Source: Amycolatopsis pittospori
GTDB taxonomy: Bacteria > Actinomycetota > Actinomycetes > Mycobacteriales > Pseudonocardiaceae
Direction of reading: 5' to 3'
Length of the DNA: 64,000 nucleotides
Assembly (NCBI RefSeq): GCF_013870525.1
Contig: NZ_JACBXD010000025.1
Span: 1-64,000, forward strand
Numbering within the stretch: the first letter of the stretch is position 1; each line of letters starts with the position of its first letter. Below the pieces are notes generated by a model. It worked only from the letters and a program-made list of their open reading frames with translations. It was not told where the DNA came from and made no database searches. The position numbers were made by a program, and so were the translations under genes. Positions 25,173 through 44,166 of this stretch are shown here, one piece after another.

Positions 25173-25176
25173 CAAA

Positions 25177-25248: not shown

Positions 25249-25299
25249 CCGGAGGCCACGCGGTGGCGTGATCGGCACAGCCTTTGCGAGAATGGGCAT

Positions 25300-25716
25300 G
25301 TGAAGCTGGAGGCGACAACGGGCGTCCGGACGAGGATGAGCAAGCAGAAGTCTCGAAACACGAAAATCGAGATAGAGCTACGCAAAGCCCTCTTCGCCGC
25401 CGGGTTGCGCTACCGCGTGCACCGCAGACCGGTGAAGGGCGTACGCCGGGAAGCCGACATCGTGTTCGGCTCCGCGCGTGTCGCGGTCTTCGTGGACGGC
25501 TGCTTCTGGCATGGCTGCCCGGAGCACGCGACGTGGCCGAAGAACAACGCGGAGTTCTGGCGCACGAAGATCGAAACCAATCGACGACGCGACCTCGACA
25601 CGGACGCCCGACTTGCCGAGGCGGGCTGGTTGGCCGTGCGGGTGTGGGAGCACGAGGCAGTCGACGCCGCGGCCGCCCGCGTGCACGGGATCGTGCGCAG
25701 CAGGCGGCCCGGCTGA
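25300..25716 (+). CDS. vsr: Vsr-family endonuclease (block B)
   Basis: A 138-residue Vsr protein of normal length. It has SKQKSRNTKIEIELRKAL at the start, READIVF with the metal-binding Asp, then VDGCFWHGCPEH (zinc Cys/His) and RVWEHE. It is clearly related to, but distinct from, the Vsr at 22899. The GTG at 25300 is the best start; no good ribosome site precedes it, so it may be translated from a near-leaderless message or a tRNA-array transcript. It ends 16 bases from the convergent drmB gene. It is the only recognisable nuclease in block B. Confidence 0.82.
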   Translation: MKLEATTGVRTRMSKQKSRNTKIEIELRKALFAAGLRYRVHRRPVKGVRREADIVFGSARVAVFVDGCFWHGCPEHATWPKNNAEFWRTKIETNRRRDLDTDARLAEAGWLAVRVWEHEAVDAAAARVHGIVRSRRPG

Positions 25717-25732
25717 CGCCCCGCCTTCGCTG

Positions 25733-27574
25733 TCAGACGCGATTGAAGTATCCAGGCACCTCTTCGGACGGCGTGCCGACCAGCAACGCGCGATCCAGGA
25801 AGCTGTTGTTCAGCTCGCAGCTCGTTTCGGGCAACAACACGCACGCGTGACATGCCGCGAGATTGACGCTGTCCGCCCCGCTCGCGCCGGATTCCATGCA
25901 CAGGGGATCGTTCGAGCACCACGCCGCCCGCGCGAGGGCTGACTGCAACGTCGCGGCCAGACGCTCCGGATCGCCCTGGGCGACGATACCGCCGAGACTT
26001 CCGGCAGAGTCGCTGGTCGCGGTGTAGACGAGGATTCCGGCCATGGCCTCACTCGCGTACAAGCGTTCCCGGAGCGCGGACGCGGGATAACCACCGTCCA
26101 AGCTCCACTCGTTGATCAGGATGTGCGCCAACGTGTGGAGCAAAACGAAACGCGGGGACACCGGTGACCTGGGCGCGCTCGACTTCGGTGTATTCGGGCG
26201 AGTTCTCTCCTCGATGAGGGCCAGGTGGTTCCGCCGCATCTGCTCGACTTGTTCGATCACCGTGGGCTTCGTTTCCCACTCGTGCAAGCGATCTTCATCG
26301 AGCCTGACGAAGACACCTTCTCCTTTGACTTCGATCGCGGGCAACCAGCTGACGTCGCGGCCCAGCTGGAGTTCGGCGAGCCGCTGCTCGGGTTCGCTCT
26401 CCAGCGGTGCGACGCCACGGGTGAATCCTTCCAGCGCGCGAACCTCGCGCAACCGCTTCGCCAACATGATCTCGGCGAGACCGTGTGCGTGCACCGGTGT
26501 GAGATCGCCTTCCGGCTTCTCGCAGACGAACGGTTGCCACTCCGCCGTGTGCTGTTCGGGATTTCCGCGACGCAGACTCTCGTATTCCTCTTCACGCAGC
26601 AATGTATGAGGGTCGACCCGGCCGTCTCCGTTCTCACTGGAATTCGGGGGTTCCTCATTCATTTCACGAGCGAGATCGATCACTTCCTCGACGGTCGTAT
26701 CTGCCTTCTTCAACAGTCCAGGTCGCTTCTCGAAGTGCCACCGAATGGCGCTTTCGGGTGCGCCGATCAGCTTCTCCCGTTCCACCAACCCACGCGCGCC
26801 CTCACCCCACGGCGGGATCGACAAGGCGCTTCGCATGACCGGATGCCAAGCGGATGACGAACCTCGTTGCATGGCCCGAGGATGGCGCGTACACGGCTGC
26901 GGCTTCGCTCCGCCGAGCCAGGGTCGGCGACCTTCGCATCGAATACCCAGGTCCCTCAACGCTTTGACACGGAAGGCTCCCTCCATCGAGACGTCCGGAA
27001 CACCGCACGTGCATCGCACGACGACCGATCGGAGTGACGCCGTGTTGCCCTCCGTCTGCAGTGTCAACGTCCCGCCACAGAGACCTCTCGCCTGCTCGGA
27101 ACCTCGATGCAACCACTTCCAGTAGGGAAAGTCCTCGATATGGCCGTCGTCGCACGCGAGTACGAACCGTGAAGGCACCAGGTCCTCTTGGCAGGTCGGA
27201 CAGCTCGCGCGACCGGGGAGGCAATTGAATACCGAGAACGGCTGGAGGACATGGCACTGGGGGCATGAGTAGAACTCGGGGAATCGCCGCACTCGGACGC
27301 CGTCGACCCCGCGGTCGGGATCGGGCGTGGGCGGCAGGCGGAACGAAGTCACCCCGCGCAGCACCTTCGCGAGCCTGCGTTCGAAGATCTCCGGTGCGTG
27401 GTCGATGTTCCACGAGTCGATTCCCGCCACGATGAAGGACTCGTTGTCGACCGCGATCATCGCGCCCACTCCATAAGTGGTGACGAGCTGCGATCTGCGT
27501 ACGGTCCCGAGCTTGCGCGCTCGCGGACGGGCGGGGACGCCGGCACTCCGGAGCCGTGATGGAGGAGGAGTCAT
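25733..27574 (-). CDS. drmB: DrmB-like DUF1998 protein
   Basis: A 613-residue DUF1998 protein as in DISARM DrmB. The N-terminus reads VRRSQLVTTYGVGAMI. A four-Cys zinc ribbon follows (YSCPQCHVL and ASCPTCQED, residues about 105-135). The C-terminal DUF1998 part has LLHTLAHILINEW near 480 and a Cys-rich site with CHACVLLPETSC near 585. In DISARM, DrmB works with the DrmA helicase and helps recognise incoming phage DNA. ATG at 27574 follows GGTAGGAA, seven bases after the drmA stop, so both are in one operon. Confidence 0.88.
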   Translation of the reverse strand: MTPPPSRLRSAGVPARPRARKLGTVRRSQLVTTYGVGAMIAVDNESFIVAGIDSWNIDHAPEIFERRLAKVLRGVTSFRLPPTPDPDRGVDGVRVRRFPEFYSCPQCHVLQPFSVFNCLPGRASCPTCQEDLVPSRFVLACDDGHIEDFPYWKWLHRGSEQARGLCGGTLTLQTEGNTASLRSVVVRCTCGVPDVSMEGAFRVKALRDLGIRCEGRRPWLGGAKPQPCTRHPRAMQRGSSSAWHPVMRSALSIPPWGEGARGLVEREKLIGAPESAIRWHFEKRPGLLKKADTTVEEVIDLAREMNEEPPNSSENGDGRVDPHTLLREEEYESLRRGNPEQHTAEWQPFVCEKPEGDLTPVHAHGLAEIMLAKRLREVRALEGFTRGVAPLESEPEQRLAELQLGRDVSWLPAIEVKGEGVFVRLDEDRLHEWETKPTVIEQVEQMRRNHLALIEERTRPNTPKSSAPRSPVSPRFVLLHTLAHILINEWSLDGGYPASALRERLYASEAMAGILVYTATSDSAGSLGGIVAQGDPERLAATLQSALARAAWCSNDPLCMESGASGADSVNLAACHACVLLPETSCELNNSFLDRALLVGTPSEEVPGYFNRV

Positions 27575-27581
27575 TTCGTTC

Positions 27582-30500
27582 CTACCGTTTCTCGAGAAAG
27601 AGCGTCGACTCGGCGTCGACGTCACGGAGGCTCCAGAGGGTGTCCCAGCCACCATTGCCGTCGTCGGCGTTGTCGAAACCCCTCAACAGGGCGGGCTCTC
27701 GGGTGCCGCGCTTGGCTTCGTAAACGAGGTCTGGTTCGGCCTCGGCTTCCTCACGCCACCAGGTGATGAACTCGTCGAAGTACTCGGTCGTCGCCTGCAG
27801 TTCATCGGGGTCGACCGAGCGAACGCGGTCCAGAATCGCGGGTCGCACCGTCGAGATGATCTCCGGCAGGAAGGTCTCGATGTCCGCGGCTGCCTGGTTG
27901 GGGCAGGCTTTCACGATCATCAACCGAGTGAGCGCGACAACCACCGCGTGGAATCCCCGATCCCGGGCGCGGGCGGAGAAGGGCGTGACGCTGGTCGACT
28001 CCACCTCGCGATAGAGGGCCGAGTGGAAGCCGGGGAAGTTCTCGTAATGCGACCGGTCCCTCGACCGCGCAGAGTTGAGCATGACCGCGATGAGACCGGG
28101 ATGCCGACGTCCTACCCGACTGGTTGCCTGGATGTACTCGGCGGTGGTCTGCGGTTGACCCATGACCGCCATGAGACCGAGTCTGTCGATGTCGACACCG
28201 ACAGAAATCATATTCGTCGCGAGCAGGAAGTCCAGGACGTTGTCTTTGTCCGGCCATGCGCACTTCAACAGCTTCAAGTAGCTGGGGATGGCGCTCGAAT
28301 CCGCACGACTGCTCAGCTCGATGTGAGCCGACACCGGACGCGCGCCACTGCAGCCGTCCCGCTTGGCCAGCAACTCCAGGCGATCCTGTACGTCGTCGAG
28401 CACTTGCAGCTCTGCGGCGGACAGCAACCGCAGACTGTTGAAGTACCCCACGAGCGTCCAATACGCGTCGCGCACCTTGGGATCGGCTTCAGTACGTGCC
28501 ACGGCCTGGAACAGCGCCGCGTAAGTCCTGACCAGCAAGGTCGCCTGACTGGTCGCCGGCGTGAGCAGTCCGATGTAACGACGCGATGCCTTGTCCCCTC
28601 GCGAGGTCTCCACGGCGAACCACGAGTCCCTGGAATCGAGGCCGGCGGGCGGGAATTGCGCCAGCTTTCGATCGAACAACGCTCCGACCTGACCGGAGGC
28701 GCGCCGGATCGTCGCGGTCGAGGCGACGACCTTCGGCCGGTCGGCCAGCACGTCCACTGCGGTCTCGTACAGACCGGTGAGGGTGCCGAGCGGACCAGAG
28801 ATGAGGTGGAGTTCGTCCTGGACGATGAGCTCCGGCTTTCGGACGTCGCTTCCGAGGTCTCGATTGAACAATGCGGCCGTTTCCGGCCGCCACGGCATGG
28901 AGGCGAACTTGTCCACCGTGGCGATCACCAGTGTCGGGTGGGCGTCGTACACGGCCTCGTCCACCAGATGGACGGGCAACCCCTCGTCGGTGGCGAATTC
29001 GCAGTCGGCGTTCGGACAGCGCACCAGCATCCGCGTGAGCCGTGGACGGACCTCGTAGTCGCCTGCCCCCAACGGTTCTCCGCACCACGGGCAGGAGTGA
29101 AGCTGTACCGGATTTTCCTTCTGGAGCGGCTTTTCCGGGTTCTTCCGTAGTTCGTCGAGCTTGATCACGGCTCGGTCGAGTTTGTTCGGGGTCGCCGACA
29201 TACCCACCCACATGCCGATCGACACCGGAACGTCGCCGAGATCGCCTTCTTTCCGCTCGGCACGGACTCGCTCCATGGCGCAGATCAAAGCCGCGGCGCG
29301 CTCGAACTGTTGGAGAGTGAGAAGCCGGAGGGTGTAGCGCATCAGCACGGTCACTCCGTCGCCGTGCCCGCCGTCGCGGAGGCGACGGAGAAACACGGTG
29401 AAGGCCACCAACCCGAGGTACGCCTCGGTCTTTCCGCCGCCGGTCGGGAACCACAACAGGTCGGCGATACCGCGGTCCTCGTGGTCCGGATCGACGATGC
29501 CTTCCAGGCACAGCAGCATGAACGCGATCTGGAAGGGGCGCCACCGCCCCGCCTCGGGATCAGGCTCGCCTTCTCGTCCCCTTTCGATCCATTCCGCCCG
29601 ACCTCGTTGGCGGGCCATGGCCTGGTTCGCCAGGCGGAACGCCTCGACCGGCATGGGCCGTGCGGGATCGGCGAGCAGCTCGACCCCTCTCCTCATGCGA
29701 CCGAGCGCTCGGTCGCAGTACTTGATCTGCTCACGCGCCACGTTGGCGTAGTCGGTGTCTTCCAGCTCGAGAGCCTCCTGCTTTCGAGCCTTGATCCACT
29801 TCTCGTACCCGTCGAGCAGGCCCCCGAGCGCACCGATGACGTCTTCGACGGTTCCGTGCCCGAGGCGGTGCATACCGAGTGCTTTGTCGTCGATCTGCGG
29901 GTTCGAATCGGTCAGCAAAACCTCATGACTGGGCACCAGCTCCGTACGGATCGACGAAACCGCTGCCTGCGTCGGCATGGCGGTACGGATCGGCGGAGCC
30001 GTCCAGCTCCATGCGACGGAGCAACCGTGACCGGTAGCGAAGTAGGGCGCGTGCCGGTGCAGCAACCGACTCAACGCGTGCTCGGCGTCCACGGCACCGA
30101 GAGGTGCCTTTCGCTCGACGAATGGCTTGGTTCCTTCAGGACCGGACACCTCCAGCTCGGGCTGGAAGAAACAGTAGGCGTCCTGGAGGTCGAATACGCC
30201 TGCGCGCCGCATGTTGACCAACGTCACTGTCACCGTGACCGTGCCACCGTCGTCGACGGGACGGATCAGCGTGCGCAACTCCAGCCCGGGACACAGTTCC
30301 GCGATGTGCATGCCGGCAGAGGTGACGTCGACGGCCACGGGTTCGCACTCCTCGGGAAGGCGACGCCACCGCTCTCGTTGTTGCTCGGTACTGCGGGCCT
30401 CGCTTCGACGCGGCTCGACGGGGACTCCGTCTTCGTCCTCCGGCGCGTAGGTCGCGACCCGGACCTTCACCTGCACCGAATCCGCGATACCCGGATCGAC

Positions 30501-30806
30501 ACCGAACGTCATGCCCATCGACGATGGCTTGCGACGGTTGGCGAGGGAGACCCCGAGGTCGGTTTCACCCTGCTCGGAGTCGTCCCCGCGGACGACATCC
30601 GGTGGCGCGTCCACGCTGTCGGTCTCCGCGAGATGATCGGAGTTCTCGATCTGCGGAAACAGGACACCGACGGGATAAGCGGTGATCGGGGCGTCGGTGG
30701 CAAGGATCTCCTTCGCGCCGCCCTGCGGACCGAGCAGGTCGTCGCGCAGGGCGATGCGAAGGTCCTTGCGCAGCGCATAATGTGCCGCATGGCGGGACTC
30801 GGTCAC
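27582..30806 (-). CDS. drmA: DrmA-like SF2 helicase
   Basis: A 1,074-residue helicase. Motif I is FPTGGGKTEAY near residue 450, motif II VQDELHLISGP near 665, motif III ASTATIR near 690. Motifs V-VI are NMISVGVDIDRLGL and QATSRVGRRHPG near 870-900, with the C-terminal HYENFPGFHSALYR typical of DrmA. In DISARM, DrmA-DrmB form the ATP-driven core that loads on foreign DNA with 5' ends. The GTG at 30806 overlaps the upstream TGA. I chose it over far-upstream in-frame starts, which would run 220 bases into the UvrD-like gene. Confidence 0.88.
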   Translation of the reverse strand: MTESRHAAHYALRKDLRIALRDDLLGPQGGAKEILATDAPITAYPVGVLFPQIENSDHLAETDSVDAPPDVVRGDDSEQGETDLGVSLANRRKPSSMGMTFGVDPGIADSVQVKVRVATYAPEDEDGVPVEPRRSEARSTEQQRERWRRLPEECEPVAVDVTSAGMHIAELCPGLELRTLIRPVDDGGTVTVTVTLVNMRRAGVFDLQDAYCFFQPELEVSGPEGTKPFVERKAPLGAVDAEHALSRLLHRHAPYFATGHGCSVAWSWTAPPIRTAMPTQAAVSSIRTELVPSHEVLLTDSNPQIDDKALGMHRLGHGTVEDVIGALGGLLDGYEKWIKARKQEALELEDTDYANVAREQIKYCDRALGRMRRGVELLADPARPMPVEAFRLANQAMARQRGRAEWIERGREGEPDPEAGRWRPFQIAFMLLCLEGIVDPDHEDRGIADLLWFPTGGGKTEAYLGLVAFTVFLRRLRDGGHGDGVTVLMRYTLRLLTLQQFERAAALICAMERVRAERKEGDLGDVPVSIGMWVGMSATPNKLDRAVIKLDELRKNPEKPLQKENPVQLHSCPWCGEPLGAGDYEVRPRLTRMLVRCPNADCEFATDEGLPVHLVDEAVYDAHPTLVIATVDKFASMPWRPETAALFNRDLGSDVRKPELIVQDELHLISGPLGTLTGLYETAVDVLADRPKVVASTATIRRASGQVGALFDRKLAQFPPAGLDSRDSWFAVETSRGDKASRRYIGLLTPATSQATLLVRTYAALFQAVARTEADPKVRDAYWTLVGYFNSLRLLSAAELQVLDDVQDRLELLAKRDGCSGARPVSAHIELSSRADSSAIPSYLKLLKCAWPDKDNVLDFLLATNMISVGVDIDRLGLMAVMGQPQTTAEYIQATSRVGRRHPGLIAVMLNSARSRDRSHYENFPGFHSALYREVESTSVTPFSARARDRGFHAVVVALTRLMIVKACPNQAAADIETFLPEIISTVRPAILDRVRSVDPDELQATTEYFDEFITWWREEAEAEPDLVYEAKRGTREPALLRGFDNADDGNGGWDTLWSLRDVDAESTLFLEKR

Positions 30807-32722
30807 AGGTTGTCCTGTCCTTCCGAGACCCGCTCGGCGTGGGTCCAGTCGAATCGGCCGAGGCCGCACAGTCGAGGGGCGAGCCATCCGCCCCGGTCGC
30901 CGAGACCGTGGCGTTCGGTGACGGCGGTCGAACCGACAACTGTTTCGACACAGTCGATTCGCAAGCCGGTGATCAGGTACGGCCACCGTTTCACCTGGTA
31001 GCCGCCGGACTGCTTGAGCAGGCGCCACAGGTCTTGCCGGAACGTCTCGGAGACCTCACCGATCGGCGTGTCCGTGTGGAAGATGCCGTACGGCGGCGTT
31101 TCGGCCGGAGACGTTGGCAGATCGTGCAGTCTGCGCAACACCACTGTGTCTCCAGGGCGAACACAGTCGCGCAGATACCTCTGCGCCGCGGCAGGGTCGT
31201 TCCCGGGTGCACGCACGCCGGCAGGTGCCTCGTGGCACACATCCGTCTCGAGACTTTCCACTCCGACGCGTTTCCAACGTTCGCGGCCACCCACGTACCA
31301 GCGCTGGATCGGTGTCGACAGGTGTACTCCCTTGCGCAACGTCCACGTGTCAGGGCATTCGACGCGATACAAGTCGTCCCGGGCCCGTGTCATGGCGACA
31401 TAGAGAAGCCTCGCCTCAGCCGTTGTGTCCATCTCATCGGTCCGCCACCGCGCGGTCGCGTCGAACCCCGCGATCAGCACACGATCGAACTCCAGTCCCT
31501 TGGCGCGGTGGACCGTGGAAACGAGGATCGGGTGCGGGAGCGGCGCCGCCAGGTCATCAGGCAACCGCCCTTCGGCGATCGCCCTTCGTAAGACCGCGGG
31601 ATCGAGCTGGTTGCGTGCGCCCGCCGCGACGGTCCGCAACGAGCGCCACGTCTCCTCGATGTCCACGTTTGCAGACATCTCGAGCTCGGGTAGAAGCTGT
31701 TCGAACCGCTCCTGACTCAACGTCGCAGCACCGGTCGCGGCGATCAGTCCCGCCATCCAGGCAGGCGCGGCACCGGATCGTGGAGACCGCTGGATACGGT
31801 GCGGGACATCGAGCTGCCCCAGCTTTTCGGACAACAGAAGCACCTGGGCGTTGTCCCGGCAGAGGATCGCCGTCGTACCGGCGAAGTCCCGCAAAGAGTC
31901 CTGTGCGAATGGAGTGTCGAGCTTTCCGAATGAGGCGACTTCCGTGAGGCGGGATCGGAGCACGTGGAGAAGCGACGCCGCCTCCGTCTCCGCCTCGGGA
32001 ATGTCCGTTAGTCGCTGCAGACGTTCTCCGTAGGGCAGCGCAATGCGGGCCTCGACTGTACGGGCGCGAAAGTTGTCGTCGAGGACGACTTCGCGCAGCT
32101 CGTCCCCGAAAGAGGCACGCAGCCACCTGAAGAACAGGCCCGCTTCGTCAGCCCGCGCCTGCGGGTCGGACACCTGAAATCCGTAGATCGACTGCGCGGA
32201 GTCACCGACGACGGTGAAACCCATGTCCGGGAACCTGTCGAGGAACGACTCGACCATTTCCCGCCGTGGTCCGACAAGGTCCTGCACCTCGTCGATGATC
32301 ACGTGAGCGGGTGCCCCCCGTTCGGTCTCCTCGACGACTCCGTTTTCGATCGCGGCGGTGGCGAGTTCGATCCGCCGATCGAACCCGTGGCTCGAAAGGT
32401 ATTCAGGGCGATTGCCCGCTTCGAGGAGGAGGGACGAAGCCCAACTGTCGAGGGTCTGGGTACGGGCCCGCCGACCCGCAACCGCGTTCCGGCCTGCCCG
32501 GGTGCGCATGACCTGGGCTGCCGCACGGGAAAAAGTCCAGATCAGGATCTCCGATGCCTCGATTCCCTCCACCGTCATCAGATGCTCGATCCGATGGATC
32601 AAGGTGGTGGTCTTGCCCGCGCCCGCCTGTGCCGAGACCAGCAGTTTGTCATTCCAGGCACTGGTCACGACGGCTCGCTGAGCGGGGGTGAGCACAAGGC
32701 TCTCCCCCTCCGGCTTCGTCAC
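30803..32722 (-). CDS. UvrD/Rep-like SF1 helicase
   Basis: A 639-residue SF1A helicase. Walker A is AQAGAGKTTT near residue 32, motif II IIDEVQDL near 145, motif III VVGDSAQSIYGF near 175, motif V STVHRAKGLEFD near 405, and motif VI LYVAMTRARDDL near 435. The C-terminal 200 residues are unique and carry no visible nuclease motif. GTG at 32722 overlaps the stop of the upstream fusion gene, and its stop overlaps drmA. Canonical DISARM lacks such a subunit, so it is a distinguishing component of block B. Function is inferred: unwinding or translocation on DNA. Confidence 0.85.
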   Translation of the reverse strand: MTKPEGESLVLTPAQRAVVTSAWNDKLLVSAQAGAGKTTTLIHRIEHLMTVEGIEASEILIWTFSRAAAQVMRTRAGRNAVAGRRARTQTLDSWASSLLLEAGNRPEYLSSHGFDRRIELATAAIENGVVEETERGAPAHVIIDEVQDLVGPRREMVESFLDRFPDMGFTVVGDSAQSIYGFQVSDPQARADEAGLFFRWLRASFGDELREVVLDDNFRARTVEARIALPYGERLQRLTDIPEAETEAASLLHVLRSRLTEVASFGKLDTPFAQDSLRDFAGTTAILCRDNAQVLLLSEKLGQLDVPHRIQRSPRSGAAPAWMAGLIAATGAATLSQERFEQLLPELEMSANVDIEETWRSLRTVAAGARNQLDPAVLRRAIAEGRLPDDLAAPLPHPILVSTVHRAKGLEFDRVLIAGFDATARWRTDEMDTTAEARLLYVAMTRARDDLYRVECPDTWTLRKGVHLSTPIQRWYVGGRERWKRVGVESLETDVCHEAPAGVRAPGNDPAAAQRYLRDCVRPGDTVVLRRLHDLPTSPAETPPYGIFHTDTPIGEVSETFRQDLWRLLKQSGGYQVKRWPYLITGLRIDCVETVVGSTAVTERHGLGDRGGWLAPRLCGLGRFDWTHAERVSEGQDNL

Positions 32723-35700: not shown

Positions 35701-37515
35701 GGCTTCGCGGATCCCGAGCTGGTCGAGTTCCCGGATCATCGTCGGGTCGTCCGAGATTTCGCGAGCCAGATACACCAGGTCATCGGTCAGACCGTCCTCG
35801 GCACTGGACCGGAAGACGCGGCCGGCCGACGCGGCGACGAAGTCACCGCTCTCGGTCAGGACGATCTCGGCCTTCCTCACTTCGGTCGCGACCGTTCGGA
35901 ACAGGACGTCCTCGGTGGCGAGCTCGTCGAGATGCGCCACGATCCGGATGGCGACGGCGGACGCGGCCGCTGTGCCGTCCTCGACCAGGGCTTCCAACCA
36001 AGCGACGACGGTTTCCACCTCGACTCCCGCCTCGGCGAGTATGTGGTTCACCTTCCCTCGACGCAGTCCGCTCACATCCACCGAGCTGTGCAGCCAGTCC
36101 TTCGGCCGACCGGCGTATCCGGTCCACAGCGTCAGCGCGATTCGGCTCAACTTTTCCGGGTGAACGCGCAGCTCGGCGGGCTTACGCAGGAGTCCGTCCT
36201 GATCGGGGAGAGAGGGCCGGACCGCCGCGAGCGCCCAGACCTTCTCGGTCAGGTGCTCGCACGCCCAGTTCGGCGACTCCTTGGCGCGGCCCGGCAGCAG
36301 CGGCAGGTACGCGGCCGGGTCCTCCAGCACGATCAACTCCGGCAACGAAGAGATGACCAGGTCCGCGGCGACGTCGAGCAGCTCGGTGTTGAGTTCGCTT
36401 CCGGAAAGCAGGTGCTGGCGGTCCTCGTTGGTCTTCCATGCGGCGTTGACGACACCGCTGAGGGTGGTCGCGTACTCGGTCGGGAAGAAGGCCCAGAACT
36501 CTCCCCTCTCGTGCGGCACCTGGCAAACGGTCTGCCCATGATCGGTCTTCGTGACCGTGTACTCCGGCACGGCCCAGGACACGTCGATGACCACGCGATC
36601 GTGCAGTTCACCCGCTACACGCCGGGTGCGTTCACTGACTTCGTGCGGACGCAGGAAGACCCGATGCTGCTCGGAGCGTGCCTTCTGCCCACCGCGGACC
36701 TCATGGATCGTGTGTCTCGCCCCGTCATGCTCGACCGTGATCTCGCGGCGAACCACCGGCAGCTCCCGACGGTCCTCGAGCACCATCTTGTGAACATGGT
36801 GCGAGAACACCTGGAACAGGCGAGGGAACTCGACGATGTCCTTACCGAGCAGGCCGTCGACTTCGGGAAGCAGCGGCAGGCGGACAACGGTTGCCGCGTT
36901 CGTACCCATCAGCTCGTCGAGCACGGGGTCGAGCGAACGTTCGCGCTCCTCGTCCAGCGGCCACGCCAGCCTCAGTACCGGAGTCTCGCCCACCGTATCC
37001 AGCGGTTGCTCGCCCTTCGCCGTTCGAGCTTCGTTGACCGCCTTGAGGATCTCCACAGCGGACCGCTCCGCATCGAACCCGAAGGAGCCAGAACGACTGA
37101 AGAACTGCGGGGTGTCGGTAACCGTCAGCACCGACTTCACGCCGACGCCGAAACGACCGATCTGGCTGCCGCTCTTCTGCGACACCCCCATGCGCAAGAT
37201 GGTGTCCGCGCCCTGCTCCGTAATGGGCGCGCCGTCGTTCGCGCAGTACATGTGGGTCTCGGTCAGAACGACCTGGATCGTGCCGCCCTGATGCTCGGGC
37301 GCACGCATCTCGTCCGCGCCGTTCTGCACGAGTTCGAACACTCCACGTTCGCGGTAGCCACCCTGGTGAATGCGTCTCTCGGCGTTGGCGTCTTCCTTGA
37401 TCCGGTCGGGGTCGAGCACATAGGTGCCCAAGGCCAGGCCGACGAGCCTGTCGATCATGGCGAGCACTGCGTTGAAGGCACGTTCGATCATTGCTACTTC
37501 ACTCCTTGACAGCAT
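32719..37515 (-). CDS. Sacsin-like GHKL ATPase fused to SF2 helicase
   Basis: About 1,598 residues. The N-terminal Hsp90/sacsin-like GHKL domain has the N-box VFELVQNGADE near residue 62, G1 YCANDGAPI and G2 IGRFGVGVKSVL. A long middle part of some 900 residues has no recognised domain. The C-terminal SF2 helicase has LPTAAGKTRIA near 1230, FVDEAHVA near 1335, GLTATPFR near 1375, and SQGFDAPATRAV with QMIGRGLRG near 1530-1550. The start region is a perfect tandem duplication, giving two equal starts (37515 and 37491), each behind AAGGAG. It is first in a four-gene leftward operon with overlapping ends and divergent from the HTH-GHKL gene. Confidence 0.85.
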   Translation of the reverse strand: MLSRSEVAMIERAFNAVLAMIDRLVGLALGTYVLDPDRIKEDANAERRIHQGGYRERGVFELVQNGADEMRAPEHQGGTIQVVLTETHMYCANDGAPITEQGADTILRMGVSQKSGSQIGRFGVGVKSVLTVTDTPQFFSRSGSFGFDAERSAVEILKAVNEARTAKGEQPLDTVGETPVLRLAWPLDEERERSLDPVLDELMGTNAATVVRLPLLPEVDGLLGKDIVEFPRLFQVFSHHVHKMVLEDRRELPVVRREITVEHDGARHTIHEVRGGQKARSEQHRVFLRPHEVSERTRRVAGELHDRVVIDVSWAVPEYTVTKTDHGQTVCQVPHERGEFWAFFPTEYATTLSGVVNAAWKTNEDRQHLLSGSELNTELLDVAADLVISSLPELIVLEDPAAYLPLLPGRAKESPNWACEHLTEKVWALAAVRPSLPDQDGLLRKPAELRVHPEKLSRIALTLWTGYAGRPKDWLHSSVDVSGLRRGKVNHILAEAGVEVETVVAWLEALVEDGTAAASAVAIRIVAHLDELATEDVLFRTVATEVRKAEIVLTESGDFVAASAGRVFRSSAEDGLTDDLVYLAREISDDPTMIRELDQLGIREADAEGRFRSVIDQGFFGYGDEEWTRFWELWRTAGGVDLVSVVRDKSAKVSAGLRVRTAAGVFRPIGKCLLPGPVVPEDGSRDARLAVDVSFHSDDLPVLRELGMTDRPTSGHRPENDSWFHEYHLWVHGEYCRELQATASRVQLQTVVLTGAPTMGSLHLFQDLSDEGKAAFLAAAPEDGLIESWTRQIGSKVSTRMRVPSPVNWFLRTYGMVETSMGLVAVREAVGPQLTAFASLLPVAAISPDKARRLGMTVNVGDMDPQRWTEFLERVKASTDDKFVGFAYALLSRFAPDLVEREEVMRCRVGQEWELRARGEIAVATTAEEYAVLVRENHPAMLADFPGETERVDFMIRELGMRRFVDVIEKRLRAVYSGPAVPLTDEWPPLRQRLGANAVHGRYLQWCSELEEVTRSPQGTRTTAMRSARQDNTVLVLDGTSFEDALVLVDRELGWNLGASGCRLVIEAHHQQQKDSAVQARLAEIRESDSFVEKIAFLIGEDNLRKGLPPGLVDSERSETGREPVAHRLAQLAYNAHDDGVLRVHAKDIAERFETAPANFDGGPAALRFVTDLGLPDVFAGVRIPVPPMREEAEGPTAFPRLHVFQEVLATRLTALLRNECAERGMLSLPTAAGKTRIAAEGAIRWIREDGIPEGPILWIAQTNELCEQAFQSWKHVWENVGPEQSLVIDRLWTTNSASPVTGRPHLVIATDAKLRMCLGTDEYAWLRNASAVFVDEAHVAISREYTFILEHLGLTHRETSRHLVGLTATPFRNDAELTRRLVQRFGNVRLDDGVFSGEPISDLQDLGVLARVEHRELVGADISLDPDELGGIKGFLPRSAELRLADDEARNKLLVEEITALPEDWPVLVFATSVGHAKFLAAKLGNRGVRSAAIDSATPMPERRQRIESFRQGRLRVLTNYGVLSQGFDAPATRAVVIARPVYSPNDYQQMIGRGLRGSRNGGKDSCLILDVRDNITNFHQDLAFTKFEYLWKKGER

Positions 37516-37536
37516 TGCTACTTCACTCCTTGACAG
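37489..37536. repeat. Perfect 24-bp tandem duplication across a translation start
   Basis: Bases 37489-37512 and 37513-37536 are identical. Each unit contains, on the minus strand, AAGGAG, a nine-base spacer and an ATG. The duplication is in frame and adds eight residues (MLSRSEVA-type) when the upstream ATG is used. Confidence 0.95.
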
Positions 37537-37810
37537 ACGGGTTAAGTGGCCACCGTCGTTTCGGTCCTGAGTAGATCCGGATTCGAGCGGGCGCGGCGCA
37601 CAGCCACCCGGCAACGGCGCTCTGCGCACATTTCCGGATGCGGCGAACTACGACCCGATCACGGGCCCCGCGCGGATTCAGTTGTGGTGCGGGCTGCTGT
37701 CGCCCAGATCCCTCCTGGAGGTGAGGCCGAAACTCCGAACTGTGTGTCGAAGCGGAGTGAAGCGGTACATTCGGGTAGCCTGAGCCGACCGAAGTGGTGT
37801 TAACCATAAG
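37537..37810. other. Divergent intergenic region of block B
   Basis: These 274 bases separate the leftward helicase operon from the operator of the rightward operon. No supported gene is present. The leftward promoter must lie here but has no clear consensus. AGTGGCCACC near 37545 resembles the palindrome AGTGGCCACT at 37845-37854 and may be a second binding site. Confidence 0.4.
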
Positions 37811-37831
37811 TTGACATGGCACTCATGTCAA
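37811..37831. promoter_or_regulatory. Palindromic operator overlapping a -35 element
   Basis: TTGACAT (37811-37817), seven bases, then ATGTCAA (37825-37831) is a perfect dyad, and its left arm is a consensus TTGACA -35 box. A weak TAGTCC -10 follows at 37833. The adjacent gene encodes an HTH domain, so autorepression by its product is the simplest reading. Confidence 0.7.
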
Positions 37832-37906
37832 ATAGTCCTGGTAGAGTGGCCACTGGCTCCCTGCCGGGAGCTCACCGCCAGGAACCTCGGAAGGCTGCAA
37901 AGGCGA

Positions 37907-40003
37907 ATGAGTGATCAGGAGGGCGAGGCCTTCGGCCCGTGGCTCGGACGACAACTGCGCAGGGCCGGAAAATCCCAAGCGGAGCTCGCCCAGCACCTCA
38001 AACTGACGCGCGCCGCCGTTTCCGCGTGGATCACCGGCCGCGCCGAGCCACGCGAGGAAGTCAAGCGTCAGATCGCCGGCTTCCTCGGCATCGACGTGGC
38101 GTCCCTGCACAATCGGGTCTCGGACGTGGTGACCAAGCTACCCCTGCAATGGCATCACAGGCCGGCGCACGCGGACGGCGGACGTGAATACGGAAACGCC
38201 GCCGCCTTCGCCTTCAAGGCGGACCTTTCGGTGCTCGCTCGCGAGGCGACACAGAACTCGCTCGACGAACGCAGTGACACCACCAAACCGGTCAGGATCC
38301 ACTACACGCTGCACGAGCTGAGCGGCGAGCACCTCGACAAGTTCCTGGACGCGTTGCAGTGGAACAAGCTCCGCCGTCACTACGACGAGGCCGCTTCCGC
38401 CGAACAGAAAGTCTCCCGCAGTCTGCGAGCTGCGCTGGACGACCTGGACCGGACGCGATCTCTCCTGTTGCTCCGGGTCGACGACTACAACGCCGCCGGT
38501 CTCACCGGGCCCGAGTACAGCGACGGCCGCTTCGCCGCAGTTGTCCGCAGGCAGCTGGACAGCCACAAGCAGTCAGGGACGCGCGCCGGCGGGTCATACG
38601 GGCTCGGCAAGGTCACGCTCTGGGCCACCAGTCGCTTCGGTCTCGTGCTGATGAACTCGACCCTCTCGATTCCGCACGAAGGTCGAACCGAACGCCGAGT
38701 CATCGGCAGGCTCGATCTGCCGTGGCGGAAAGTGGATGACAAGGCGTACGCCGGACCGGCCTGGTTCGGCGAGCCGGACACGGCGCCGAGCCACAAGGAA
38801 GTTTCCCGGTCGTGGTGGGCGGACGAGGACGCCGTTCGTGAACTCCACCTCGAACGGGCCAACTCGGACACGGGCACGTCGTTTCTCATCGTCGGGGCGC
38901 ATGATGCTTCCGGAGACACGGAATCCCTGGAAGACCTGCACGAGAAGTTGGTGCGTTCGCTGGCCGACGGGTTCTGGGCCGCGATGATCGGCGGTGACCG
39001 AGCGGGCGCGCTACTGGAAGCCCGCGTCACGACCCTCCGCAACGGCCGCGTGCTGGTACCGGAACATCAGGTCAATCCCCATACCCACCACCCTGCCCTG
39101 AGCAGGGCTCTCAAGGCCTACTTGGACAACGAGACCGTGGCCGAGCGGACCGCCGGCGATCAAGTGGCCAGTGTCGAGGTGCCGCTGTTCGTCACTCCTC
39201 GAAAAGGAGAAGGCAAAGCGCAAGGCAAAGGTGTGAAGCACTCTGCCGTCCTCCTGCTCACCCGTGCGGAAGGTGAGGAGCGAACCAATCGCGTGGTGTG
39301 CATGCGCGGCAACCGCATGACGATCATCGACAAGCGCCCTCGTGATCTTCCGCTGGGCACGGACGCCTTTCAAGCTGTCCTTCTCGCCGGCCACGCCACC
39401 GAGAACGAAGGTGAAGACGTCGACCTTGCCGAGCAGTTCCTCCGTGCGTCCGAGCCTCCCGAACATCACAAGTGGGACCGTACGGAAGAGCTGACCTCCC
39501 TGTACCAGAGAGGGGCGTTGACTCGGATCAAAGAGTTCCACGACGAGATCGACCGAGCGGTACGGGAGCTTGTCGGTCGTCGGGAGATCAGTCGACGCGG
39601 AGGCCCGACTGTGCTAAAGGAGTTACTGAAACTCGACAGCGCTGGCGCCGCCGGAAGCAGACGGGCACAAGGTGTGCCCACGGTCCGCAGCATCAACGCA
39701 CAGCTGGACGACACCGGCGCCTGGCATGTCAGCGTCGATATCAAGCTGCCCAACGCGGAAGATCCGTGGTTGCTGACTCCGGTCGCCAAGTTCGACGTCA
39801 GGTCCGGCGGCCGTCCGGCCGTGGACTGGAGTCTTCTCACCGCGGCGGAGAACTGTGACGTGGAGAACGGCAACCTGATAATTCCGCCTGGAGTGCGGTC
39901 GGCTTCGTTCATCGGAGTCACGGATCCGACGAGTCATCCTGTTCGAGGTCGTTTCTCCAGGCTTGTCGTGGACGTCCAGAAGGCACGCGGGGGTGCCGTA
40001 TGA
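37907..40003 (+). CDS. XRE-type HTH fused to GHKL ATPase
   Basis: A 698-residue fusion. Residues about 15-65 are an XRE helix-turn-helix (SQAELAQHLKLTRAAVSAWI). A Hsp90-like GHKL ATPase follows, with the N-box LAREATQNSLDE near 120, a G1-like LRVDDYNAAGL near 200 and the G2 loop GGSYGLGKVTLW near 235. The C-terminal 250 residues are unassigned. The ATG at 37907 is 75 bases after a palindromic operator. It probably couples DNA-bound control of block B to an ATP-dependent conformational change. The stop overlaps the next gene (ATGA). HTH-GHKL fusions are rare in known defence modules. Confidence 0.82.
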   Translation: MSDQEGEAFGPWLGRQLRRAGKSQAELAQHLKLTRAAVSAWITGRAEPREEVKRQIAGFLGIDVASLHNRVSDVVTKLPLQWHHRPAHADGGREYGNAAAFAFKADLSVLAREATQNSLDERSDTTKPVRIHYTLHELSGEHLDKFLDALQWNKLRRHYDEAASAEQKVSRSLRAALDDLDRTRSLLLLRVDDYNAAGLTGPEYSDGRFAAVVRRQLDSHKQSGTRAGGSYGLGKVTLWATSRFGLVLMNSTLSIPHEGRTERRVIGRLDLPWRKVDDKAYAGPAWFGEPDTAPSHKEVSRSWWADEDAVRELHLERANSDTGTSFLIVGAHDASGDTESLEDLHEKLVRSLADGFWAAMIGGDRAGALLEARVTTLRNGRVLVPEHQVNPHTHHPALSRALKAYLDNETVAERTAGDQVASVEVPLFVTPRKGEGKAQGKGVKHSAVLLLTRAEGEERTNRVVCMRGNRMTIIDKRPRDLPLGTDAFQAVLLAGHATENEGEDVDLAEQFLRASEPPEHHKWDRTEELTSLYQRGALTRIKEFHDEIDRAVRELVGRREISRRGGPTVLKELLKLDSAGAAGSRRAQGVPTVRSINAQLDDTGAWHVSVDIKLPNAEDPWLLTPVAKFDVRSGGRPAVDWSLLTAAENCDVENGNLIIPPGVRSASFIGVTDPTSHPVRGRFSRLVVDVQKARGGAV

Positions 40004-40986
40004 AGGCCGCGTTCCCTTACCCGACGCTCTTCGGCGACGTGAGCCTCGACGTGACCGCGGTGAGTGTGGACGGTACGGCGTTGCCGTACTCGCACGTGTC
40101 CAAGATCGAGCAGACGGTCGCGTTGCATCAGACCGGTCGGGAAAAGTGGGAGATCGCGACTCTGCACCTCGCGGCCAAGCTGCCCGAAGACGAACTCTCC
40201 GAAGGCCCTTGGGTCGATCCGGTGTGCCTGGCGGTACTCACCGAAAAAGCCACCAATGCCCGGTCGACAACGCGTCTGACCCGTGCCCGTGACGGCAGCT
40301 GGCACGGAAGCATCGACCTTGCCCGCGCCCGTCACCTCAACCGTGCCTCTCTCGCCCTGACGGTTGTCGCCGGCCTCGACGACGTGACCGGCCGTTTCAT
40401 CGGCACCTCGGAAAAGCCCTGGTTCGTCGATCTGAAGGTCTCCACTCCGGTGCGGCAGCGCGACATCGAGATCGTCGAGATCGACTTCCGCGAAGGACCC
40501 TACGAGTGGTTGCGCCCGTTCAAGGAGTCCCCGTGGATCATCGAAACCTCGGGTGACATCCCGACTGTCTATCTGAACACCGGCGCGGTGGAAGGTCTGG
40601 TCGACGCCCTTCACGGCGCGGGCGGCGGTGCGGACGAGAAGATGTTGCGTGAACTGACCGCAAGCCAGATCGCCCAGGACGCATGGACCGCCATGTTCCA
40701 CACGGCAATCAGTGATCTGGACATCGACGAGGACGGAACGCCGCAAATGCCTGCCGGCTGGCGAGAGGCCGTGGTGCGGATGATGTTGCCGGACGTACTG
40801 CCAGGACGGCAGCTGACGGACGCGCTCTACGACATCAACGAGCGTCGCACCAAGGGGTTCGGTTGGTCCGAACTGCAGACGAGCGTTCAGCATGCGGCAG
40901 GCAGGCGCAGTCAGATCACCAAGAAGCTCACCAACGCCGTGCGCTCTGTCCAGCGGCAGTCGGAGGCGGTGGCCGATGAGTCGTGA
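40000..40986 (+). CDS. Unknown block B protein
   Basis: A 328-residue protein that I do not recognise. The first 150 residues are rich in beta-strand pattern, including HVSKIEQTVALHQTG and KWEIATLHLAAKLP, suggesting a sandwich fold. The C-terminal third is helical and basic, with RRTKGFGWSELQTSVQHAAGRR. There are no catalytic motifs. It overlaps its neighbours on both sides (4 and 11 bases), so it is made together with the HTH-GHKL protein and the DUF6339-like protein, probably as one complex. Confidence 0.75.
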   Translation: MKAAFPYPTLFGDVSLDVTAVSVDGTALPYSHVSKIEQTVALHQTGREKWEIATLHLAAKLPEDELSEGPWVDPVCLAVLTEKATNARSTTRLTRARDGSWHGSIDLARARHLNRASLALTVVAGLDDVTGRFIGTSEKPWFVDLKVSTPVRQRDIEIVEIDFREGPYEWLRPFKESPWIIETSGDIPTVYLNTGAVEGLVDALHGAGGGADEKMLRELTASQIAQDAWTAMFHTAISDLDIDEDGTPQMPAGWREAVVRMMLPDVLPGRQLTDALYDINERRTKGFGWSELQTSVQHAAGRRSQITKKLTNAVRSVQRQSEAVADES

Positions 40987-41863
40987 GACCGGTGTCGACC
41001 TCCCTCCTGAACTCGAGCTGCTTCCCGACGCGGCGGTCACCAAGTTCCTCACCCGCGGCATGCAGTCAGGGCAGGAGAAACCGCCGCTCGTCGCTCTCCG
41101 CAAGGCGTCAAGTCCACTTCCGTCGTCCGAAGCACGGTGGAGGATCGCGCCGGTAAGGGAGTTGCTCGACGTCGCGATGGAACGCTTCGAAGAGCGGCCC
41201 ACGGATGCCGACGGCTGGTTGGCTCCGCGGCTGCATGCCACACTGCGGATGACCCGGGCCGAAGCAGCCGACGGTCGCCTTTGGAACTACCTCGCCATGA
41301 TCGCAGCGCCAGACTACGTGGTCTGGCGCCACAAGGGCACCGAGATCACGGCTACTTCCCGGTTCAGCGGCCCGCACTACACACAAGCCTTTGCCCGTTT
41401 GTGGTGGGCGGCCGAGCTGTTCCGCAACGGGGACGACTACGGCCCGGTGGAAGTCGCGTGCAGCGTCCAGGACGTCCTGAACACGACGATGCGCCTGGAC
41501 GTGATCGACCACCGCCCGACCGCGATCGCGGTCATCCGCGTGCTCGAGGAGCTGAGACGGTCGAACGTTTCCCGTCTGGGCGACCGGGTCAACGCCTTGT
41601 CCTCAGCGGTGAACGCGGCGGGCAGCACTCTGATGTACGACGTACTGGCTCCGGACGAACCGGTGGATCACGACGCGGTGCACGACTGGATCGCCGAGGC
41701 CGCAGGCATGGCCCCCGTGCACTGGGACCGGCTTCCCGACGGCCCTGACGACGGCGAAGTCCGCGAGGACGCGGTCATTGCCTTGGTGCCGCTGTTCAAA
41801 CAACTGCTCGAAGAAGCGCCTATGCGACTTCGGAAGAAGGTTGCTGCTCCTCAGGAGCAGTAA
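40976..41863 (+). CDS. DUF6339-like protein
   Basis: A 295-residue, mostly helical protein resembling the DUF6339 family, known mainly from actinobacterial defence loci and without established function. Visible features are RLWNYLAMIAAPDYVVWRH, an aromatic-rich region around ARLWWAAELFRN, and RPTAIAVIRVLEELRR. The ATG at 40976 lies inside the previous gene's end. The last 44 bases overlap the tail of the convergent methyltransferase gene. The family call rests on remembered sequence character, not a search. Confidence 0.65.
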   Translation: MSRETGVDLPPELELLPDAAVTKFLTRGMQSGQEKPPLVALRKASSPLPSSEARWRIAPVRELLDVAMERFEERPTDADGWLAPRLHATLRMTRAEAADGRLWNYLAMIAAPDYVVWRHKGTEITATSRFSGPHYTQAFARLWWAAELFRNGDDYGPVEVACSVQDVLNTTMRLDVIDHRPTAIAVIRVLEELRRSNVSRLGDRVNALSSAVNAAGSTLMYDVLAPDEPVDHDAVHDWIAEAAGMAPVHWDRLPDGPDDGEVREDAVIALVPLFKQLLEEAPMRLRKKVAAPQEQ

Positions 41864-42992
41864 CCTCTTCGGACGGAGTCTTGAGAGGCGTCGAGGGCAG
41901 CAGAGGCGTGTCGTAAATTCCCGAGTCCCAGTTCGCGGCGACAACCGAGTCGAGGTCCTCGGCTTCGAACTTGCGACCCAAGGCCGCGGCGAGCACGTGG
42001 GCTGCCAGACGCGGCGGAATCGCATTCCCGACCTGCTGCGCGATCTCCTTGCCGGACCAGGGGTAATCGATGGGAAAGGTCTGCAGCAGCCCGGCTTCCT
42101 CTTTCGTCAGTCGGACGAGCTCGCGCTTGGGTGAAACAGACGAATACAGCCGATTTCGTGAGATCTTGCCGGTCACCGTCGCGGAAGGTTCGTCCGACCT
42201 GCGCCTGCCCCGCAACTTGGGATTGCCACCGGTGCCGTAGTTCGACACCACTTCGAACGGCTCGTTCCTCTCACGCAAAGCATCGGCCATCGTGACCCAC
42301 GGCTTGAGGGCGGCTGCGCCCTCGGAACGGTCCTTACCCTTGTGGTACCGACGATGCGTCGGCGTCGGCAATGAGGCTTCGCCGTTGCGGCGCGCGATGA
42401 GGATCGCGCGCCGTCGGGTCTGCGGCACACCGAACTCCTCGGTGTGCAAGATGCCGCACGCAACGCTGTAACCACGCTTTTTCAGCACAGCCGCGTAAGC
42501 CTCCCAGACAGGAAGGACGGCAGGCACCTGCTCCAACACGATGGCCTCATAGGGCATCTCGTGCTCGAGCGCGTCCAACACCCAGCGTAACGGCTCCAGC
42601 ACCAGGCCGGTGCGTTCATCGCCGTTGTGATGAAGCTTTTTGAGCTCTGGTTGGACGTCATCGCCGTCGGCCATTCGCTCCAGGAACTCGAGTACCCGAG
42701 TCAGCGCTTCCCGACCTTCACCGTTACCCGCGACCGTGTACGTCTGACACGGCGGGCCGCCCGAGAGCACGGTGGCATCCGGGAAGTCTTTGGGGCCGAA
42801 CTCCCGGACATCGGCTTGCTTGGTACCGAGACCGGCGGCGCGCCTGGTCTCGCAGGCGCTCTCGTCCCACTCGATGCCATCGACGTGAACGCCCAACCAG
42901 TGTGCGGCGACGTCCAGTCCGCCGGGCCCCGCGAACAGGTCCACCATCTGGATCTGCGCAGTCGTGAACAGCTGCGGCTGCACAGGGGTCAT
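41820..42992 (-). CDS. C5-cytosine DNA methyltransferase, catalytic (block B)
   Basis: A 390-residue m5C methyltransferase. Motif I is VDLFAGPGGLDVAA, motif IV LSGGPPCQTYTVAG with the catalytic Cys near residue 82. Motif VI is the variant LEQVPAVLP (EQV for ENV), motif VIII QTRRRAILIA, and motif X QQVGNAIPP. It is a plausible active enzyme that marks host DNA for block B, in the role of DrmMII in class 2 DISARM. It lies 37 bases downstream of a second methyltransferase-like gene on the same strand. Its 3' end overlaps the convergent gene by 44 bases. Confidence 0.9.
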   Translation of the reverse strand: MTPVQPQLFTTAQIQMVDLFAGPGGLDVAAHWLGVHVDGIEWDESACETRRAAGLGTKQADVREFGPKDFPDATVLSGGPPCQTYTVAGNGEGREALTRVLEFLERMADGDDVQPELKKLHHNGDERTGLVLEPLRWVLDALEHEMPYEAIVLEQVPAVLPVWEAYAAVLKKRGYSVACGILHTEEFGVPQTRRRAILIARRNGEASLPTPTHRRYHKGKDRSEGAAALKPWVTMADALRERNEPFEVVSNYGTGGNPKLRGRRRSDEPSATVTGKISRNRLYSSVSPKRELVRLTKEEAGLLQTFPIDYPWSGKEIAQQVGNAIPPRLAAHVLAAALGRKFEAEDLDSVVAANWDSGIYDTPLLPSTPLKTPSEEVTAPEEQQPSSEVA

Positions 42993-43029
42993 GAGGTGGA
43001 AGTTTAACTCGTGGACGACGTCGAAATCA

Positions 43030-44031
43030 TCAGGCTCCGCCGTGTGTCAGCGCGGAACGGATGACGCATCCCAACGCGTGGGCGACGGGTGGCGGCGAGG
43101 CGTGGCCGACCTGGCGATAGCGAACGGTTTTCTTGCCTTCGAACCGCCAGTCCGGGGGAAATCCCTGCAAGCGTGCGGCCTGCTCGACGGTCAGCTTCAC
43201 CAGGCCGTCCCGGCCGAGATCCGGGTTCCACACGAAGTCTGGCCCAGGCACCTCGTTCGCGACGGTGGCCCCGTCCACATCCATCTTGACCCACGCCCGC
43301 TTCGATCCGGTTGGCCCGAGATCCGGACCTCCTCGGTCCCAGGATCCGCCCACCAAGGTCGGCGCCAGTTTGTTCGCCTGCCGGGCCCAATTGCTCGCCT
43401 GGGCCCACCCGCGCGCCTTCATCGACTCCTCGAGCGCTTCACCCACCGTCACCGGTGGTTCCAGGCTCGGTTCGGGTTCCTCGAAGGCATCCATGGCATC
43501 ACCTTTGAGCGCGACCAGGACGCCCTGCTCACGGTTCTGAGGCACGCCATGGTCGGCCGCGTTGACCACGAACCATTTGTACCGATAGCCGAGGTGGTCC
43601 AGCTCCAGGCCGACGAACTCTCGCACCGCGCTGTAGGTGTCTTTGGTTACGAGGTCCGGAACGTTCTCGACCAACAAAGCACGCGGCTGCACCCCGTGCA
43701 TCAGCATGATTGTCGCTTTGAGCAGTTCGAGCTCGATATCACTGCCACGGGTCCTGTTGACCGTCGCCGAGGCCTTCACTCGCGGCAGGCCAGCGGACAG
43801 CAAATCGACGTCGTAGACCTGCTGGTGTTCCTCTGGAACGAACTCGAGAAGATCGAGTTCGAGAATGTTCCATCCAGGACGATTCGCTCGCAGCGTGCGG
43901 CACGCCACATCGCGATTGTCCAACAACAGAACGGGATCGAAGCCCGCTTGTTCCAGACCGAGCGCAAGCCCACCCGCACCGGAACAGACATCGAACGAAG
44001 AAAGTCGTCTTGCTTCCGCCACAGTCCCCAT
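43030..44031 (-). CDS. C5-cytosine methyltransferase homologue lacking the catalytic Cys
   Basis: A 333-residue protein with the m5C methyltransferase framework: motif I FDVCSGAGGLALGLEQAGF, motif VI LLVENVPDLV, and a motif X-like QVGHASPPP. The catalytic motif IV, normally GGPPCQxFS, reads SAGLPRVKAS, with Arg where the Cys should be. Motif VIII reads QNREQGVLV, missing the last Arg. The protein should bind cofactor and perhaps DNA but not methylate. It precedes the active methyltransferase on the same strand, suggesting a pseudo-enzyme partner. The ATG at 44031 follows GAGGGG. Confidence 0.85.
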   Translation of the reverse strand: MGTVAEARRLSSFDVCSGAGGLALGLEQAGFDPVLLLDNRDVACRTLRANRPGWNILELDLLEFVPEEHQQVYDVDLLSAGLPRVKASATVNRTRGSDIELELLKATIMLMHGVQPRALLVENVPDLVTKDTYSAVREFVGLELDHLGYRYKWFVVNAADHGVPQNREQGVLVALKGDAMDAFEEPEPSLEPPVTVGEALEESMKARGWAQASNWARQANKLAPTLVGGSWDRGGPDLGPTGSKRAWVKMDVDGATVANEVPGPDFVWNPDLGRDGLVKLTVEQAARLQGFPPDWRFEGKKTVRYRQVGHASPPPVAHALGCVIRSALTHGGA

Positions 44032-44140
44032 CGCGCCCCTCGACCATTGGAAGTACTCCAGCGTAACCCAGAACACTGTTCAACGAGAACGAATAGCCGA
44101 AGGCTTCAACCAGGGCCCAAAGTCCACACAGGACACAAAG

Positions 44141-44166
44141 AAGCCCTCCCGCGAACGGGAGGGCTT
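44141..44166 (-). terminator. Terminator after tRNA-Arg
   Basis: AAGCCCTCCC and GGGAGGGCTT form a perfect 10-bp stem with a six-base loop. On the minus strand it is followed by TTCTTTGTG, fitting termination of the tRNA-Ser/tRNA-Arg transcript. Confidence 0.8.

Follow-up and report, generated by a model that had tools for sequence, protein, structure and literature searches.

The window analysed here, 64,000 nucleotides of the Amycolatopsis pittospori contig NZ_JACBXD010000025.1 (positions 1 to 64,000), carries a cassette of ten genes (~18.9 kb) in which a helicase operon with DrmA and DrmB homologues and a trio of genes, M33A-M33B-M33C, stand back to back. Judged from its sequence, the cassette may tentatively be read (probability roughly 0.4) as a single mobile system against phage, made up of two coupled halves, in which a methyltransferase homologue, MT2, would serve for recognition and a helix-turn-helix (HTH) protein would hold the promoter. 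The cassette belongs to neither of the two DISARM classes (1 and 2) nor to ARMADA, and fits none of the system types compared. Between 25.3 and 44.0 kb, the genes follow in the order Vsr (+ strand); DrmB, DrmA, UvrD and a 1,636-codon fusion of a GHKL ATPase to a superfamily 2 (SF2) helicase (- strand); M33A, M33B and M33C (+ strand); and the C5-cytosine methyltransferase homologues MT1 and MT2 (- strand). The original prediction of a DISARM-like but non-canonical defence array had the genes, strands and coordinates right, including the two C5-methyltransferase homologues and the Vsr that complete the set, and its DrmA, DrmB, UvrD and sacsin-type fusion were confirmed with NCBIfam and Pfam.

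Conservation and joint inheritance of the two halves

Loci were counted by tblastn. Of 351 relatives in the genome collection the 80 best were kept, so that the 79 loci used represent the nearest kin recovered (L122 and L129 being two places on one contig). All 79 bear actinomycete names; given that cut, a restriction to Actinomycetota cannot be claimed. The original prediction was to be judged by the conservation of gene order across actinomycetes and, in a test fixed beforehand, by the co-conservation of its two half-operons, and it held up on both. The order fusion-UvrD-DrmA-DrmB was found in 75 of the 76 loci with >7 kb of room (75/79 overall) and is thus not due to chance, and the divergent M33 trio lay beside the helicase operon in 66 of the 79 loci. 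Protein distances, calculated for the 64 loci with all seven genes, correlated with r = 0.93 between fusion and M33A and r = 0.91 between DrmA and M33A; between the two halves, r ranged from 0.86 to 0.93, and 0 of 999 permutations reached the observed values in three pairs (all with the effect of genome relatedness included). Distance correlations with the fusion were 0.75 for MT2 (61 loci) and 0.50 for MT1 (54 loci).

Among the 394 genomes of the class, a long fusion homologue was found in 17 (own genome included) at 18 loci, with two in G290; three further genomes matched in the helicase part only. Outside the window, UvrD, DrmA and DrmB followed in order after 15 of the 17 long homologues, and M33ABC was divergent in seven. 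In G118 (L070), the fusion lies near a contig end and is followed by a 542-residue gene with no Pfam, PADLOC or UvrD match, with UvrD-DrmA-DrmB ~27 kb away; in G290a, the fusion gene contains an in-frame TGA and DrmB is split into two tblastn pieces. M33A (E <= 1e-15) was present in 14 of the 394 genomes, eight of them with the fusion, a co-occurrence with a Fisher p of 4.8e-9 (6.4e-8 without the own genome).

Insertion site and mobility

Two same-genus genomes hold an empty site, with window position 25249 joined to 44117 in G468 (L202, 92 bp between) and to 44121 in G450 (L205, 460 bp between). In G456 (L201), the cassette is present across the fetched stretch (window 27060-47046) at 87% DNA identity, and G438, G474 and G492 carry other sequence between the same flanks. 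As same-genus genomes thus show an empty site or the presence or absence of the whole block, the cassette is one inserted element. It is bracketed by tRNA clusters (24886-25250 and 44187-44393) in a hotspot layout; few tRNAs were seen at the 26 other loci tested. None of 11 matching plasmid records covered 80% of the fusion, and a distant, nearly full-length relative of the fusion (37%) was found on the viral contig L209. At the empty site of two relatives stands a tRNA-Cys(gca), of which ARAGORN finds none in the window; elsewhere in the genome from which the window comes, it gave only a 38-base match (87%). To the left of the cassette and outside it, a separate MZA-like set contains a second Vsr and a C5-methyltransferase (21601-23642).

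These data bear on the idea that Vsr, the MutL/MORC-like GHKL protein and UvrD make the cassette a mobile set for DNA repair, serving repair of deaminated 5-methylcytosine or replication restart, with no anti-phage role. Vsr, MutL and UvrD are indeed partners in very-short-patch and mismatch repair, according to PMC2292703, but DrmA and DrmB match DISARM families, the site is a hotspot with other cargo in relatives, and the distribution is as patchy as the count of long fusion homologues indicates; we regard a pure repair function as very improbable.

Methyltransferases MT1 and MT2

The role of the cysteine as catalytic residue and the motif names used here are established knowledge of the C5-methyltransferase family. 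MT2 has lost this cysteine in 63/63 rows of its alignment (arginine in 61, serine in two), with motif VI reading ENV in 50/63, and is predicted to be a catalytically dead methyltransferase. MT1 keeps the cysteine in all 53 readable rows, six more rows not covering the column, and reads EQV for ENV in 59/59. The DrmMII models matched both proteins (MT1 1.6e-20, MT2 2.8e-26), far below the MTase_II and DruM2 models.

The loss of the cysteine goes with M33. The closest PADLOC models of MT2 are DruM2, and DruM2-family matches were obtained in 35 of 296 genomes (38 rows), of which 30 were taken as loci: seven relatives are without the cysteine and 23 have it. M33A is present in the genomes of six of these seven; the remaining one (G101) has as neighbours a distant GHKL gene, which matches an M33A profile weakly, and a DUF6339-like stretch. 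Around the 23 genes that keep the cysteine (12-20 kb each, E 1e-3), M33A, M33B and M33C profiles gave no match in any case, and 11/11 controls were matched. Of the 79 loci related to the cassette, 66 have the divergent trio, and 62 of these contain MT2; none of the 13 loci lacking the trio does (0 of 13). The active partner varies, as an MT3-like enzyme replaces MT1 in some loci. A hypervariable recognition region in MT2, as for changing specificity, was considered and not seen, with a mean identity of 0.52 there versus 0.61 and 0.65 elsewhere; for MT1 the values are 0.50 versus 0.58 and 0.59.

M33 genes and upstream palindrome

In PADLOC, the divergent HTH-GHKL protein matched the candidate model PDC-M33A; gene three of the trio matched PDC-M33C and, in Pfam, DUF6339. 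The original prediction of an HTH-GHKL fusion with two uncharacterised proteins was correct as to the divergent position; the trio is on record as the PADLOC candidate PDC-M33 and so not wholly unknown. M33B matched no family in PADLOC, Pfam or NCBIfam; its predicted structure has sandwich-type structural neighbours for residues 9-149. When 22 members of the M33B-type middle genes were scanned, the single PADLOC match was a weak one to HamA (E 0.043), and our own hidden Markov model of the middle gene joins haloarchaeal and cyanobacterial middle genes. Two nuclease candidates were rejected: M33B is a beta-sandwich with no convincing enzyme match (the structure comparison being good for residues 9-149 only), and inspection by eye of 75 M33A sequences brought out no ExK-type motif conserved at the C-terminus. 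M33ABC also adjoins other effector sets, including DrmAB of another clade and an archaeal class 2 DISARM, the latter on a plasmid of Halobaculum magnesiiphilum (L218:7009-25524; DrmE-A-B-C near M33A-B-C).

Of 67 intergenic regions, taken from the window and 66 loci, 47 have a palindrome TTGAC-N9-13-GTCAA directly upstream of M33A, versus an expectation of 0.25 regions and at most two in any of 200 first-order Markov simulations. The pattern was derived from the window and widened once, which raised the count from 44 to 47 of the 67 regions. In the window and the 79 whole loci, it occurred outside the M33A intergenic regions in L097 and L117. As the palindrome lies upstream of M33A and M33A contains an XRE-type HTH, the palindrome is a candidate operator and suggests autoregulation of M33A, by analogy with the controller proteins of restriction-modification systems.

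Further arrangements were noted around related loci. Actinoplanes xinjiangensis carries two fusion copies on one contig (L122, L129), with M33A and M33B on the same strand downstream of DrmB. A gene family of ~210-290 residues, winged-HTH-like by eye, stands directly upstream of the fusion in L123, L124 (9043-9708), L126, L127 and L129, all without the divergent trio. Near the cassette, an ATP-binding gene (anti-sigma-like by eye) was seen in 24/80 loci and an XRE regulator in 27/80 (e.g. L089:21894-23606).

Helicase operon

The four-base overlaps that the original prediction had pointed out at 32719 (fusion/UvrD) and 30803 (UvrD/DrmA) are real and read GTGA; DrmB does not overlap DrmA (27582) from its likely start at 27574, and would do so from an upstream ATG at 27655. 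The single co-translated complex that the original prediction deduced from such overlaps is putative. The fusion has a sacsin-type GHKL N-terminus (NF047352, 63 bits, cut-off 50); its C-terminus is of SF2 type (above the cut-offs of Pfam DEAD, Helicase_C and ResIII), and RadD-type helicases, solved structures included, are nearest to it by sequence. Across 17 fusion homologues, the invariant columns include residues of the GHKL and helicase motifs. An AlphaFold model of fusion residues 58-1232 (predicted local distance difference test, pLDDT, 86.4) matches Hsp90, TRAP1 and sacsin structures, and the 50 structural matches listed were all of the GHKL/Hsp90 type, which probes only a small part of this region for a hidden nuclease. 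In the C-terminal region of UvrD (residues 455-639), where a hidden nuclease was also looked for, Pfam gave no match; G346, the relative that diverges most, has a NERD-nuclease/UvrD fusion in place of UvrD.

A midpoint-rooted tree was built from 43 DrmA rows, namely the window, a sample of 21 out of the 79 loci, and 21 further rows. In it, the group of the window together with G118 forms one clade (100/100), apart from the other M33-linked DrmA rows L149 and L164 and sister (99/96) to five high-scoring rows. Among these five, L142 and L143 gave a DrmMI match, and L143 and L144 one to DrmC, all three being from other genomes of the class; one gene of L145 was scanned and gave no Drm match, and L141 was left out. 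The same library also detected DrmE and DrmC in Halobaculum, and DrmC, DrmD, DrmE and DrmMI were absent from the matches listed for the cassette proteins (PADLOC and NCBIfam; best 25 PADLOC matches for UvrD and the methyltransferases, full NCBIfam lists for all), which bears out the description as DISARM-like but non-canonical.

The cassette could be taken for a DISARM that has diverged, the fusion and UvrD standing in for DrmD or DrmE and Vsr for DrmC, with M33 and MT2 as accessory regulators. DrmA and DrmB above curated cut-offs and the sister rows with DrmMI or DrmC speak for this. DrmC, moreover, is dispensable and often missing, as stated by Bravo et al. (PMC9142583), so that its absence alone would not exclude DISARM. 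Against it stand the missing DrmD, DrmE and DrmMI matches, the separate DrmA clade and the tight link of MT2 to M33, and we consider it unlikely.

More DrmA homologues were present in the class sample (L146-L159, ~750-910 bits summed versus NF038325), falling into several clades with varied partners; they are unclassified DISARM-like sets. Behind another DrmA-DrmB pair, L147:13527-16454 encodes a 975-residue protein matching PADLOC MzaA/MzaB and Pfam sigma-70 regions 2 and 4, a putative sigma-factor-like domain in a DISARM-like set. All features of the cassette are collected in Table 1, with likely starts (M33A 37907, M33C 40976, Vsr 25300, MT2 44031, fusion ~37491) judged by eye from alignments.

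Table 1. Features of the cassette in window coordinates
Feature	Position	Strand	Evidence and remarks
Whole inserted cassette	25250..44117	no strand	tRNA-gene hotspot; bounds set by empty site in relatives
Vsr-type PD-(D/E)XK endonuclease	25300..25716	+	PADLOC Vsr 1.2e-13; Vsr motifs conserved in 62 sequences
DrmB (DUF1998/MZB protein)	25733..27574	-	NCBIfam NF038324 483 bits, cut-off 240; PADLOC DrmB 4e-74
DrmA (YprA-type helicase, short form)	27582..30806	-	NCBIfam NF038325 998 bits, cut-off 950; own DrmA clade
UvrD/GajB-like helicase	30803..32722	-	Pfam UvrD 7e-26; Walker-type motifs invariant in 20 sequences
Sacsin/Hsp90-type GHKL ATPase fused to RadD-like SF2 helicase	32719..37629	-	likely start ~37491
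Palindrome TTGACATG-N5-CATGTCAA, operator-like	37811..37831	no strand	~75 bp upstream of likely M33A start
M33A, XRE-type HTH and GHKL ATPase	37907..40003	+	PADLOC PDC-M33A 8.1e-25; HTH_31/HTH_3; GHKL motifs conserved in 75 sequences
M33B, Ig-like beta-sandwich and C-terminal helices	40000..40986	+	no family match; AlphaFold pLDDT 88.8
M33C, DUF6339 protein	40976..41863	+	PADLOC PDC-M33C 2.2e-10; PF19866 2.6e-15
MT1, C5-cytosine methyltransferase, catalytic Cys kept	41820..42992	-	PF00145
MT2, C5-methyltransferase homologue without catalytic Cys (GLPRVK for GxPPCQ)	43030..44031	-	PF00145

Proposed mechanism

In a single coupled system, MT1 would methylate host DNA and so mark self, and M33A, M33B and M33C together with MT2 would recognise DNA that does not bear it; MT2 would serve to recognise the DNA but transfer no methyl group to it. 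Once DNA is flagged in this way, the GHKL/RadD-like fusion, UvrD and DrmAB would load onto it, unwind it and keep it from being used, and a nick would come from Vsr or a host nuclease. For DrmAB of Serratia, release of autoinhibition by 5'-overhang DNA is described in PMC9142583. The HTH of M33A may bind the palindrome at its own promoter, holding the system down until the host is methylated. Phage restriction, the sequence of steps, the part played by MT2 and the target of the HTH are proposed here on family knowledge and co-conservation.

The chief rival holds that two independent defence systems travel together, a DISARM-like helicase operon and a restriction-type system of M33, methyltransferases and Vsr, each working alone. 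Several observations point that way and weigh against a coupled system. The divergent trio is missing beside the helicase operon in 13 of the 79 loci, so the two halves can part (in L114 and L119 the contig start is too near, and in L122 and L129 the M33 genes lie elsewhere), and M33ABC occurs without DrmAB nearby in L160-L163 and on a Synechococcus plasmid. Also adverse to the coupled reading are the M33C distances, which fit the effector half least (0.86-0.89), the share of genome relatedness in the distance correlations and co-occurrence tests, and the presence of Vsr within the flanks of 57 of the 79 loci only. The palindrome is close to M33A and far from the start of the fusion gene, and was not found in 20 of the 67 regions, variants of the pattern lying outside the search; MT2 keeps motif VI and could be active in some other way. 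Against two separate systems speak the near-fixed divergent layout around a shared promoter region, the correlation between fusion and M33A, the insertion as one unit, and the fact that M33 is also found paired with class 2 DISARM and with DrmAB from a different clade; we consider this rival rather unlikely, ahead of a divergent DISARM.

Comparison with known systems

With DISARM of both classes, the cassette shares adjacent DrmA and DrmB over curated cut-offs and DNA methyltransferase genes nearby; it differs in the GHKL-SF2 fusion and UvrD, the separate DrmA clade, the predicted dead C5-methyltransferase and M33ABC, and the gene set as a whole argues against either class. ARMADA, to which the original prediction had hesitantly likened the array, is defined in PMC12458937 by a YprA helicase with a fused DUF1998 region, BrxHII and PglX. 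A YprA-type helicase and a GajB-like UvrD are common to both, and the YprA proteins of ARMADA include a Vsr-type nuclease domain (PMC12458937). The match was nonetheless rejected on gene content: DrmA and DrmB are separate genes, and no BrxHII-like SNF2 or PglX-like match was found among the cassette proteins. ARMADA type II has an N-terminal RelE on its GajB-like helicase, whereas in the cassette the UvrD helicase match starts at residue 11, with no RelE match.

The PADLOC candidate PDC-M33 is represented in the cassette by M33A and M33C, which match its models; M33B matches none, and the cassette has the helicase operon, MT1, MT2 and Vsr besides. The name PDC-M33 was not found in the open-access papers searched, the PDC names probably stemming from a preprint of the PADLOC group. 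Nor did searches of these papers list a description of the cassette's gene set, most subscription papers and preprints being outside the search. With MZA, the cassette has a GHKL protein in common, and an MZA-like set lies beside it in the window.

New are the loss of the MT2 cysteine tied to M33 loci, the palindrome upstream of M33A, and the occurrence of M33ABC beside other effector sets. According to PMC12458937, the YprA-helicase defence tree holds many uncharacterised DISARM-like classes, and the locus provides one of them with a defined gene set, insertion boundaries and a candidate operator. It also presents a testable oddity, a methyltransferase homologue that lacks the cysteine in all MT2 sequences inspected at M33-type loci and whose relatives elsewhere keep it, and in so compact a cassette DISARM-like discrimination of self and non-self, and the question of which nuclease acts without DrmC, become testable. 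GHKL ATPases with C5-methyltransferase, Vsr and SF2 helicases have been predicted to form restriction-modification systems of the MORC/paraMORC type, in which an S5 domain follows the GHKL domain (Iyer et al. 2008, PMC2292703, in the part accessible). That part names neither DrmA or DrmB nor a dead methyltransferase, and the likeness is one of gene content; the cassette holds a GHKL ATPase, a C5-methyltransferase, Vsr and an SF2 helicase in one neighbourhood, and so links DISARM to GHKL-based restriction-modification systems.

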